This document shows positions 2,554 to 9,810 of a stretch of DNA of 36,519 nt, in pieces; the first letter of the stretch is position 1; each line of letters opens with the position of its first letter. Source of the DNA: Lachnospiraceae bacterium (GTDB lineage: Bacteria > Bacillota > Clostridia > Lachnospirales > Lachnospiraceae); the NCBI GenBank assembly GCA_017624235.1, contig JAGANL010000019.1, positions 1 through 36,519 of the forward strand. The letters run 5' to 3'. The notes under the pieces are model-generated. The model was not told the origin of the DNA. It saw only the letters and a program-made list of their open reading frames with translations, and ran no database searches. The translations under genes were made by a program, and so were the position numbers.

Positions 2554-2834
2554 TTCTGCCCACACCAGTCTCCGCCCACCCCAGCCCTGTTGCACGGAAA
2601 ACATTTCGGGACATACAGCAGGACTGTGCGTTTTCTTAATGGAGCATTCAATACCCAGGGGAAAATCGGCACGGATGCCGATTTTAAGCGTCATGTGCAC
2701 GGATGCACATTGACGCTGCCCCGAACTGCTTTCCATTCTTTCATGCTCCATTTAGAAAACTCCAGTCCGAATGTCGTCCCGAAATGTTTTCCGTGCAACA
2801 GGGCTGGGGCGGGCGGAGACTGGTGTGGGCGGAA
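2554..2834 (+). repeat. Foldback element, copy A: long palindromic structured repeat with two GGA-loop hairpins
   Basis: The arms 2554-2612 and 2776-2834 are complementary over 59 positions, with one T-G wobble and one A-C mismatch. The inner arms (about 2613-2647 and 2743-2775) still pair, but with conserved internal mismatches. The 95-base centre holds a perfect 10-bp hairpin at 2662-2685 with loop CGGA (2672-2675) and a 13-bp hairpin with a one-base bulge at 2687-2717, also with loop CGGA (2700-2703). GGGG at 2658-2661 and CCCC at 2719-2722 could enclose both. A related copy lies at 9514-9810 in inverse orientation. There is no convincing reading frame, no transposase and no obvious target-site duplication. 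It could be a non-coding RNA or a foldback/MITE-like element; I recognise no named family. Confidence 0.85.
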
Positions 2835-2883
2835 TGGTTAGGTCATCCATATAGACAAACAAAACAAATGTTCGATAAAACTA

Positions 2884-2912
2884 TTGCTTTTCTTTAAGCT
2901 GTGTGGTAATAT
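2884..2912 (+). promoter_or_regulatory. Probable promoter for the radical SAM operon
   Basis: TTGCTT (2884-2889), a 17-base spacer and TAATAT (2907-2912) form a reasonable sigma-A promoter about 50 bases before the radical SAM start codon. It lies just downstream of foldback element A, so the gene need not depend on transcription through the element. Confidence 0.5.
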
Positions 2913-2963
2913 AGAAACGAACGGATGTTCTAGAAAGCGGAGTGAGAAGAAAGGGACGAAACC

Positions 2964-4406
2964 ATGGAATACAGGGTGGAAAAGTGGAACAGCCAGACCA
3001 TGACGACGATGGAGAAGCTGGGAATTTTGGCGGATGCGGCGAAATATGATGTATCCTGTACTTCCAGCGGAGTAGACAGAAAGGGTGACGGCACAGGAAT
3101 CGGAAATACTGCTGCAGGCGGAATCTGTCACAGCTTTTCGGCGGACGGACGCTGCATTTCCTTATTAAAGGTGCTGCTCACCAATGAATGTATTTATGAT
3201 TGCAAATACTGTCTCAATCGCAGATCGAATGATGTGCCCAGAGCGGCCTTCTCACCGGAGGAACTCTGTGAATTGACGATGCAGTTTTATCGGAGAAATT
3301 ACATTGAAGGACTTTTCTTAAGTTCGGGGATTCTGGGAAGTCCGGATCTGACGATGGAGATGCTCTACCGCACAGTGCTCCTGCTCCGGACAAGACATCG
3401 TTTTCAGGGGTATATTCATGTCAAGGCCATACCGGGAGCCAGTAAAGAACTGGTTTACCGTACCGGCCTTCTGGCAGACCGTATGAGCGTGAATCTGGAG
3501 CTGCCGACGGCAGAAGGCCTGAAGCGGCTCGCACCGAATAAACCCCGTAAGAATATTCTGACCCCGATGCGTCTCATTCAGAACGGAATCACGGAAAATC
3601 AAAATGAAATTGTGCGTTACCGGAATGCGCCCCGCTTTGTACCAGCGGGGCAGAGCACGCAGATGATTATCGGAGCGACTCCTGAAACAGATTATCAGAT
3701 TATGACGGTTGCAGAGAAGCTGTATCAGAATTTTGGCCTAAAGAGAGTTTTTTACTCCGCATTTATACAGGTCAATGAAGATAAGGAGCTGCCGGCACTG
3801 CCGGGAGGACCGCCTCTTTTGCGGGAACACAGACTCTATCAGGCAGATTTCCTTTTGCGGTTTTATGGATTTGAAGCCGGGGAGCTTTTAAGTGAGCAGA
3901 AGCCTAATTTCAATATGCTGTTGGATCCGAAATGCGACTGGGCTTTGCGGCATCTGGAGCTGTTTCCGGTGGAAATCAACCGGGCAGATTATGAGCTGCT
4001 TTTACGGATTCCGGGCATTGGTGTGAAAAGTGCGCAGAGGATTGTAAGAGCGAGGAGAAATGCGAGCCTGACTTTTGAGAATTTGAAGAAAATCGGCGTG
4101 GTTTTAAAGCGTGCACTTTATTTCATTACCTGTAATGGAAGGATGATGTATCCGACGAAACTCGATGAGGATTATATTACAAGAAATTTATTGAATGTGA
4201 AGGAAAAATTGCCTTTTCCTACAGATGGCATGACCTATAGACAGTTGTCTTTGTTTGATGATAAAAACTTTTATGAGGATGCAGAACTGCATAGCTGGAA
4301 GGCCGCGGAGAGGGATGAGGGAAAGGCAGCCGAAGCTGGGAAAAGGCAGCAGCAGACTGTGTTGGAAGGAGTGTGGAGAGATGCCGGAGAAATGCTTGTT
4401 GTGTGA
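2964..4406 (+). CDS. Putative DNA modification/repair radical SAM protein
   Basis: The 480-residue protein has a radical SAM cluster motif, Cys76-x3-Cys80-x2-Cys83 within NECIYDCKYCLNRR, that would bind a 4Fe-4S cluster and cleave S-adenosylmethionine. Near residues 350-370 a helix-hairpin-helix motif (LLRIPGIGVKSAQRIVRARR) suggests DNA binding. This layout, with a DUF4130 gene directly downstream, matches the family annotated as 'putative DNA modification/repair radical SAM protein', which often travels with a uracil-DNA glycosylase-like partner. The reaction and substrate are not known to me. Its last 26 bases overlap the next gene, indicating translational coupling. The C-terminal tail after about residue 440 is Lys/Glu/Gln-rich and probably not part of the core fold. 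Confidence 0.88.
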   Translation: MEYRVEKWNSQTMTTMEKLGILADAAKYDVSCTSSGVDRKGDGTGIGNTAAGGICHSFSADGRCISLLKVLLTNECIYDCKYCLNRRSNDVPRAAFSPEELCELTMQFYRRNYIEGLFLSSGILGSPDLTMEMLYRTVLLLRTRHRFQGYIHVKAIPGASKELVYRTGLLADRMSVNLELPTAEGLKRLAPNKPRKNILTPMRLIQNGITENQNEIVRYRNAPRFVPAGQSTQMIIGATPETDYQIMTVAEKLYQNFGLKRVFYSAFIQVNEDKELPALPGGPPLLREHRLYQADFLLRFYGFEAGELLSEQKPNFNMLLDPKCDWALRHLELFPVEINRADYELLLRIPGIGVKSAQRIVRARRNASLTFENLKKIGVVLKRALYFITCNGRMMYPTKLDEDYITRNLLNVKEKLPFPTDGMTYRQLSLFDDKNFYEDAELHSWKAAERDEGKAAEAGKRQQQTVLEGVWRDAGEMLVV

Positions 4407-8291: not shown

Positions 8292-8298
8292 AAACCGG

Positions 8299-8342
8299 AA
8301 AAATCCGTATGTTGACTTAAGTGGTCAGCATACGGATTTCTG
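8299..8342. terminator. Bidirectional terminator between helicase and nfo
   Basis: AAATCCGTATG (about 8301-8311) pairs with CATACGGATTT (8329-8339), with TTGAC/GTCA extending the stem inside the loop. On the minus strand the stem is followed by a run of five T, which is good for nfo. On the plus strand the tail is weaker (TTTCTGCTT). The hairpin contains the nfo stop codon (8317-8319), so the last nfo codons are part of the terminator. Confidence 0.75.
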
Positions 8343-9174
8343 CTTGATAAGGGGCAGCTTTTTTTGAGGGATTCCTGGGATCTGGGATCCATGGAGTTTC
8401 TAAAATCTTTGGAATATCCAGAAAGTCCTTATGGTTTACGATCGCCTTCAGAGCCGGAAGACCGATGGCACCGTCACCGATATTCGCATGACGGTCTTTG
8501 GCTGCACCCCGTTCGTTTTTACTGTCATTGATATGGAATACGGCAATCTGCTGTTTCCCCAGAAGCTTGTCAAGCTGGTCTATGACGCCGTCAAACTCTT
8601 CGACAATGGGATAGCCGGCATCGTGTACATGGCAGGTATCAAAGCAGATACACAGTTTATCGGAACAGTGAACCCTGTCATAGATTGCGGCCAGCTCTTC
8701 AAAGGAACGTCCGATTTCAGAACCCTTTCCAGCCATGGTTTCCAGGGCGACACAGCAGGGGGTCTCCCGTGTCAGGACGGCATTCAATCCCTCGGCAATT
8801 TTTTCGATACCCTGTTCGACACCGGCGCCAACGTGCGCACCGGGATGAACGATGAGAATGGGGCTTCCCATAGCGGCAGTACGCTCTAATTCCAGTGCAA
8901 GAAAATCTACGGCAAGAGAAAAGGTGTCGGGATTGACGGAATTGGCCAGATTGATAATATAGGGAGCATGAACCAGAAAGGTATCAATGCCATGCTCCTT
9001 CATATAGTCCCAGGCAGGCTGGATATTCAGTTCGTTTATTTCTTTGCGTCTGGTGTTTTGTGGGGCACCGGTATAGAGCATGAAAGTGTTTGCACCATAA
9101 GAGACTGCTTCTTTAGCAGAGCCGAGCATCATTTCTTTGCCGGACATGGATACGTGGGAGCCGATTCGGAACAT
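8317..9174 (-). CDS. nfo: Endonuclease IV (deoxyribonuclease IV)
   Basis: The 285-residue protein is a typical Nfo: a TIM-barrel apurinic/apyrimidinic endonuclease with a trinuclear zinc site that nicks DNA 5' of abasic sites in base-excision repair. Family segments visible in order are [12 protein letters not shown] at the N-terminus, [82 protein letters not shown] text and ILETPW. These include the metal-binding His, Glu and Asp residues. The frame is open to 9216, but ATG at 9174 (MFRIGSHV) is preceded by GGAAAGGAGGA and fits the family start. It is convergent with the helicase-nuclease. Confidence 0.97.
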
Positions 9175-9513
9175 GGGGATTCCTCCTTTCCTGAGGAAAA
9201 TATTTTTCCTTAGCATACCATAAAAGAATCAATAGTGGTATACATAACTTCAAATTGCCATATCTTTTATGTTATGCAAAATATTTGCAATACGGAAGAG
9301 AAAATGTCAAAAAAGAAAGATAAATCACAGGGTATGACAGGTGTGCATAAGTAATATGACACAAGTGTCAATGTGGATAAGTATGTGGAAATTGGGGATT
9401 TCTTTAAAAAATAAGTTGGATTCGTCATTTTTTTTGGTGAATCGGGCGATGGAATATTCGGAAAGCATTAAAAATGATACTGAATCAGTCAATGAGATTA
9501 TGTAAACGTGAAT
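9175..9513. other. AT-rich intergenic region between nfo and foldback element B
   Basis: This stretch holds the nfo ribosome binding site and presumably its promoter. A possible extended -10 (TGG-TATGCT on the minus strand near 9212-9220) lacks a clear -35. I found no convincing gene: the only frame through it runs into the palindrome and has no family resemblance. Confidence 0.5.
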
Positions 9514-9810
9514 GGCACCAGTACGGCCAGCACCAGCCTCCGTTCTCACCTGCCCTGTCACCCACAGAACATTTCAAGACGACATTCGGACTGGAGTTTT
9601 CTAAATGGAGCAGGAAGTTATAGACTGCGGCCGGGTCGGATTCCATGCACATCCATGTGCAGGAATCCTGAAATCGTCATCCTTGCCGATTTCTCCCTAA
9701 GTATAGGAATGCTCCATTAAGAAAACACTCAGTCCTAATGTATGTCTTGAAATGTTCTGTGGGTGACAGGGCAGGTGAGAACGGAGGCTGGTGCTGGCCG
9801 TACTGGTGCC
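9514..9810 (-). repeat. Foldback element, copy B: long palindromic structured repeat with two GGA-loop hairpins
   Basis: Arms 9514-9580 and 9744-9810 are perfectly complementary over 67 bases. The inner arms (9581-9612 and 9711-9743) pair with the same mismatch pattern as copy A. The 35 bases at 9578-9612 read on the minus strand are identical to the 3' inner arm of copy A (about 2745-2779, the last bases differing only where the outer stem begins). The centre has, on the minus strand, a hairpin at 9670-9693 with loop AGGA and a hairpin at 9638-9668 with loop TGGA. These correspond in order to the two hairpins of copy A, so the element reads toward nfo. GGG/CCC near 9695-9697 and 9632-9634 may enclose both hairpins. 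There is no coding frame and no transposase. Confidence 0.85.

Follow-up and report, generated by a model that had tools for sequence, protein, structure and literature searches.

TwoAYGGAY RNA (RF01731; Weinberg 2010) is an RNA family in Rfam, for which binding of CsrA has already been proposed in passages of PMC4333381. Paired GGA motifs in C-G-closed hexaloops are also encountered in the CsrA/RsmA-titrating RNAs CsrB and RsmZ, and in the Campylobacter flaA leader (sections of PMC4894983). Miniature inverted-repeat transposable elements (MITEs), including ERIC, Correia/NEMIS, and QMITE2, are intergenic, stem-loop-forming sequences with terminal inverted repeats that are present in tens of copies or more, and QMITE2 has been reported to display direct repeats of 7-9 bp and to reside mostly in 3' untranslated regions (part of PMC10969869). 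Moreover, template switching, by which one arm is copied and both sides of a stem change together, has been proposed for RNA hairpins generally (excerpts of PMC8794818). Here, a window of 36,519 nucleotides was analyzed, i.e., the whole stretch of DNA that represents contig C22 of the Lachnospiraceae genome G000 (80% complete, 2.33 Mb, 51 contigs), which harbors two copies of a long palindromic element with a TwoAYGGAY core, designated copy A (2554..2834, plus strand) and copy B (9514..9810, minus strand).

The likeness to TwoAYGGAY RNA concerns the core of both copies; whereas the Rfam match covers approximately 162 nt, complementarity extends 49-87 bp beyond it in each arm (median 66; 35 of the 36 copies in G000, copy C5_2 at a contig edge being left out of the arm counts), the palindrome is dispersed in many copies, and positions 2 and 6 of the hairpin 1 loop are not limited to Y. 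In comparison with CsrB and RsmZ, the element offers two predicted sites per molecule and occurs in many genomic copies, as a repeat with mobile-element features. Its arms are longer than those of QMITE2 (23-29 bp) and change in concert, and it differs from ERIC, Correia/NEMIS, and QMITE2 by its conserved RNA core and by the lack of a visible parent insertion sequence, IS66 being the only family searched. The template-switching work reconstructs histories of RNA genes, as far as the excerpts of PMC8794818 go, whereas the present case is a multicopy repeat with arms of ~66 bp (median) and no wobble excess. No description of TwoAYGGAY as a dispersed or mobile repeat was found in the open-licence literature, and the supplement of 2010 may comment on copy number. 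The TwoAYGGAY family and the CsrA proposal are known; the additions made here are the mobile-looking architecture, the concerted and wobble-free evolution of the arms, and a test of that proposal across genomes.

The data make it probable that the element is non-autonomous and MITE-like, with a TwoAYGGAY core, arms that are maintained at the DNA level, and the potential to bind CsrA. In the element of approximately 294 bp, long inverted repeats would flank the core and form the termini, with ends near GTAACAGTTCAGCC in G000, and a transposase acting on these ends would spread the copies. The arms would be kept near-perfect mainly at the DNA level, one arm being copied from the other while the element is replicated or transposed (by template switching or via a hairpin intermediate), and not through selection on an RNA helix. 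When transcribed, the core would expose two CsrA-type hairpins, 24-28 nt apart, that may bind one CsrA dimer, and the copies together could titrate CsrA.

Core, copies and distribution

A first-pass annotation of the window had proposed dispersed elements with compensatory changes in their arms, which is borne out here, with 36 copies above the cut-off in G000 instead of two. The 59 outer positions of copy A comprise 57 Watson-Crick pairs, one G-T pair, and one mismatch, and all 67 outer positions of copy B pair, as had been noted. The reported differences between the copies that are matched in the facing arm hold for all six pairs, i.e., G2608-C2780, G2609-C2779, and A2599-T2789 in copy A, and A9576-T9748, A9577-T9747, and G9567-C9757 in copy B. 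Both copies fold beyond chance, with z-scores of -20.5 (copy A) and -30.2 (copy B) relative to 100 dinucleotide shuffles each. The annotation had recognized no family for them; cmscan assigns the core of both copies to RF01731, well above the gathering score of 43 bits (copy A, 2614..2775, plus strand, 89.3 bits; copy B, 9581..9742, minus strand, 74.3 bits) and over the full length of the model (168 of 168 positions, 1-168). The core is thereby matched to a known Rfam family, so that the notion of an unnamed family has to be abandoned, and what was observed on the arms and on dispersal stands.

The search with the Rfam model detected one further G000 copy below the cut-off, and BLAST with either window copy also found partial copies. 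The prospect that no further copies exist, which had been raised as speaking against the element, can be dismissed on the basis of the copies in G000 and of the RF01731 matches in 63 of the 397 sampled genomes of the family, a search in which stricter filters were applied and weak matches were lost. The sister species G001 contains 2 copies, versus 36 in G000. At the class level, 33 of the 391 sampled genomes match, 27 of them above the cut-off; the family of the window itself contributes 6 of the 33, among them G000. The same Rfam-model search gave no match in 14 control genomes, and no match was found in phages, plasmids, and viral contigs, for which one search employed a narrow exact pattern and the others copy A only. 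In genome contigs, the narrow exact pattern retrieved one record.

Two further observations concern the distribution of the element. The Lachnospiraceae contig JAFSCH010000095.1 (L137:2256-2382) contains the inner helix motif TTTTCTTAATGGAGC/GCTCCATTTAGAAAA together with long arms, and its interior, judged by eye, is without paired GGA hairpins. In genome G087, 18 of the 31 TwoAYGGAY copies are arranged as nine divergent pairs with their 5' ends facing each other at a distance of a few hundred bases (L157, L159-L164, L166, and L167), and similar pairs appear in the match listings of G009, G038, and G365.

Concerted change in the arms

A conserved RNA helix is conventionally proven by covariation, which the element displays at a level far above shuffles. 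The consensus fold and covariation analysis, which rest on 28 of the 36 G000 copies, yielded 101 pairs with two-sided changes at 77 of them, 95.3% pairing cells versus 74.4% in shuffles, and a covariation score of 0.556 versus 0.155, a value reached by none of 500 shuffles. Such a pattern is what would be anticipated if the whole hairpin, arms included, were a functional RNA and the arms covaried by classical RNA selection through compensatory substitutions. The strong conservation of internal loops and tips also favors this explanation, as do the extra covarying pairs listed for TwoAYGGAY in parts of the Rfam 15 and CaCoFold papers (PMC11701678 and PMC7657543), the CaCoFold pairs being an extension of the annotated helix according to passages of the latter. 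We nevertheless regard it as rather unlikely, on account of the random orientation of the copies to genes, the variability of the arms in sequence and length both between copies and between genomes, the rarity of one-sided changes, and the composition of the mismatches, in which G-U does not exceed A-C even though G-U intermediates are the expected path.

Strand-symmetric mutation generates G-U and A-C mismatches at equal frequency, and G-U should be tolerated where an RNA helix is under selection. The arms of the 35 G000 copies contain 2186 Watson-Crick, 40 G-U, 30 A-C, and 25 other pairs (95.8% Watson-Crick), and the ratio of 40:30 (p 0.28) was obtained by symmetric scoring, which was adopted in place of a scoring of G-U above A-C that gave 59:29. 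Over 138 copies of several genomes (3 of the 141 gathered copies with less than 150 nt of flank being left out), the ratio on the element strand was 183:166 (p 0.39). No bias was seen either on the strand of co-directional neighbor genes (117:111), where strand and orientation counts include 135 copies after removal of 3 of the 138 with arms below 10 nt. As a control, tRNAs from the same loci displayed 9 G-U and 0 A-C in 5 distinct tRNAs (Fisher p 0.004), with the provision that the tRNA finder ARAGORN itself accepts G-U.

The identity of the pairs is specific for each copy. The nearest copies have only 64-82% of their pairs in common, and the pairing score of a copy's own arms (median 54, lowest 37.5; 35 copies) contrasts with that of swapped arms (median 1, highest 24; 70 swaps). 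In 30 nearest-partner comparisons, from which copy pairs with fewer than 40 aligned pairs were excluded, 1211 paired positions were unchanged and 406 had changed on both sides while remaining Watson-Crick, as compared to 65 one-sided changes (27 G-U, 24 A-C, 14 other) and 28 two-sided changes in which Watson-Crick pairing was lost in at least one copy. Because two-sided changes far exceed one-sided changes and G-U equals A-C, the two arms behave like a sequence together with a copy of itself, and no selection would be needed for this pattern if one arm were rewritten from the other at the DNA level. The mismatch ratios give no hint that the arms are selected as RNA, and DNA-level homogenization fits better; the data are compatible with continuous correction as well as with correction at the birth of each copy. 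RNA selection and template switching had both been named in the first-pass annotation, which thus identified the right candidates, and the arm data lean to the latter, DNA-level one. In other genera the design of the element is the same, with arms that are shorter or less perfect.

Ends, insertion sites and neighboring genes

At ~294 bp and with 36 copies above the cut-off in 2.33 Mb, the element is short, multicopy, and dispersed. The better conserved G000 copies end close to GTAACAGTTCAGCC, and four TwoAYGGAY copies as well as a palindrome on contig C21 carry TAACNGTTCAGCC at both ends when one mismatch is allowed; in total, TAACNGTTCAGCC has 30 matches in G000, versus 7 for a reversed control pattern. 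This C21 palindrome (C21:7383-7676) measures 294 bp and has the ends of the TwoAYGGAY element around a different interior, for which Rfam gave no match above any gathering score. A 76-bp hairpin on C42 represents the outer arms alone, without a core and with the same ends within one mismatch. Moreover, copies on C3 and C15 lack both tip hairpins, and copies on C4 and C39 carry partial deletions. By visual inspection, the palindrome continues beyond the consensus end in approximately 8 of 35 copies. Two matching inverted solo ends (GTTACAGTTCAGCCAGC) were observed on C21 near positions 475 and 12974, 12.5 kb apart, and are perhaps leftovers rather than the borders of a large element.

In the sister genome G001, the positions corresponding to the two window sites are without the element; the flanks there are 73-82% identical, and the intergenic DNA is shorter by 266 and 289 bp; the junctions of these empty sites are too diverged to define exact boundaries, and the absence is compatible with gain or loss. 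Direct repeats in the flanks give a signal that peaks at 8 bp, where z is 4.2 if offsets are left free and 2.4-3.3 if they are fixed, and under the strictest filter on the ends (12 copies) k = 4 ranks marginally above k = 8 (3.15 versus 2.96). No shared insertion site was seen when 98 copies (36 of G000, 31 of 31 of G087, 30 of 47 of G043, and 1 of 8 of G061) were compared with 19 copies (11 of 15 of G358, 5 of 5 of G385, 2 of 2 of G001, and 1 of 6 of G370). The flank comparison produced four one-flank matches; inspection of the two long ones, between G043 and G358, revealed different insertions, and the other two consist of 69 bp to G001 and of a match at 67% identity to G370.

Gene context was derived from lists of open reading frames (ORFs), without a gene caller. 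Among the 135 copies, 44 are sense and 43 antisense to co-directional neighbors, 22 lie between convergent and 18 between divergent genes, and 8 are unclear. The MITE-like character is proposed because this orientation is random and because elements without paired tip hairpins have the same ends. In G000, an element end lies no more than 20 bp away from 20 of the 31 neighboring stop codons, versus 0 of the 40 start codons (a few ORF calls that overlap an element were counted as neither). This proximity to stop codons would suit a cis-regulatory leader or 3' untranslated region element, as would the type field of Rfam, which reads 'Cis-reg'; however, at 44:43 half of those copies would be read on the other strand, and Weinberg 2010 graded cis-regulation 'n' for TwoAYGGAY (section of PMC2864571). 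The label is disfavored because orientation to genes is random, and a cis-regulatory role is considered very improbable.

Copy A of the window is located between the divergent ORFs 1438..2484 (minus strand, start codon at 69 bp) and 2964..4406 (plus strand, start codon at 129 bp), and copy B between the divergent ORFs 8317..9216 (minus strand, start codon at 297 bp) and 9943..11253 (plus strand, start codon at 132 bp). Elsewhere in G000, the copy at C3:21058 (L086) was seen by eye to lie inside the loop of a hairpin with an A-tract and a T-tract that resembles an intrinsic terminator, 13 bp from a stop codon, and this copy looks like an insertion into the terminator loop. At the very end of the window (36467-36519), the start of the group II intron model (RF02001, 42.9 bits) was matched, cut by the contig end.

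Tip hairpins, CsrA and the balance of evidence

Each core has two tip hairpins, positioned on the basis of sequence, alignment, and the loop consensus. In copy A (plus strand) these are hairpin 1 (2662..2685), which is CsrA-site-like, and hairpin 2 (2688..2716), both with a C-G-closed hexaloop ACGGAT, and in copy B (minus strand) hairpin 1 (9670..9693) with the loop AAGGAT and hairpin 2 (9638..9668) with the loop ATGGAT; relative to the AYGGAY of the family name, ANGGAN fits the loops of all copies better. In 140 of the 141 gathered copies (one short core was dropped), the consensus of hairpin 1 reads C(140) A(137) N G(135) G(139) A(139) N G(140). Six-base loops account for 126 of these, all C-G closed and 123 of them ANGGAN, with T 64, C 35, A 25, and G 2 at position 2, and the remaining 14 loops have five bases. 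Hairpin 2 is looser, as 98 of its 117 six-base loops are ANGGA, 22 copies have a five-base loop, and one lacks it. Both loops contain GGA in 117 of the 140 copies, at a spacing of 24-28 nt. Apical hexaloops of the type CANGGANG are high-affinity targets of CsrA/RsmE, with a best spacing of 18 nt (sections of PMC4894983). By their sequence, the tips look like CsrA sites, with ANGGA in C-G-closed hexaloops and two per element.

G000 has one CsrA match, and CsrA was detected in 208 of the 397 genomes of the family sample, including 60 of the 63 RF01731 carriers versus 148 of the 334 non-carriers (p 1.5e-15, with the reservation that related genomes are not independent). FliG was found in 211 of the 397 genomes and in 62 of the 63 carriers. 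The CsrA-type paired hairpins, the co-occurrence with CsrA, and the paired divergent copies in G087 would equally be expected of dispersed, independently transcribed small RNA genes that titrate CsrA and were duplicated for dosage, without being mobile DNA. Such genes are an unlikely explanation: the flanks look unrelated by eye, hence no shared promoter is apparent, elements with the same ends and without paired hairpins exist, and no shared site was seen between genomes of the same genus. A tentative and more far-reaching possibility, to which we give less than even weight, is that the mobile family has domesticated, or itself amounts to, a set of paired CsrA traps, with arms that are rewritten by template switching, the covariation being partly a signature of replication.

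Several results weigh against the favored explanation of a MITE-like element with DNA-level upkeep of its arms and CsrA-binding potential. With respect to mobility, visible target duplication is rare (k = 8 with at most one mismatch in 4 of 35 copies, versus 0.65 expected), both window copies sit between divergent genes and not near stop codons, and no transposase with the element ends was found, IS66 being the sole family searched in a genome that is 80% complete in 51 contigs. IS66 was a candidate on account of its ends (GTAA) and 8-bp duplications, a guess that is not supported: PF03050 gave 0 matches in G000, and at none of the six IS66 loci of G087 and G315 do the first 12 end bases occur with fewer than 2 mismatches, loci outside G000 being a weak test as the element ends of other genera look different by eye. 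With respect to the arms, those outside G000 are less perfect (81-93% Watson-Crick within the aligned stretch), and wobble pairs are nearly absent from the stem of tip hairpin 1 as well (978 Watson-Crick, 3 G-U, 4 A-C, and 23 other pairs), so that a strict helix requirement may partly account for the lack of G-U. Finally, the carriers G169, G319, and G358 have no CsrA match, G319 lacking FliG as well, and 205 genomes have both CsrA and FliG, out of 208 with CsrA and 211 with FliG. The CsrA association may reflect motility because CsrA nearly coincides with FliG, and flagella account for the carrier pattern as well as CsrA does.

The element constitutes a large natural case in which an outer helix covaries strongly (two-sided changes in 77 of 101 pairs) without the wobble excess expected from RNA selection, and it can be used to test how far DNA-level homogenization mimics covariation. 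RF01731 gains a concrete anatomy, that of a repeat which is dispersed and probably mobile, and with CsrA a partner that can be tested. If the copies indeed act as domesticated CsrA traps, each insertion would add a CsrA-titrating hairpin to a motile bacterium, and the textbook covariation in RF01731 would in part be a signature of replication and not evidence of RNA selection.

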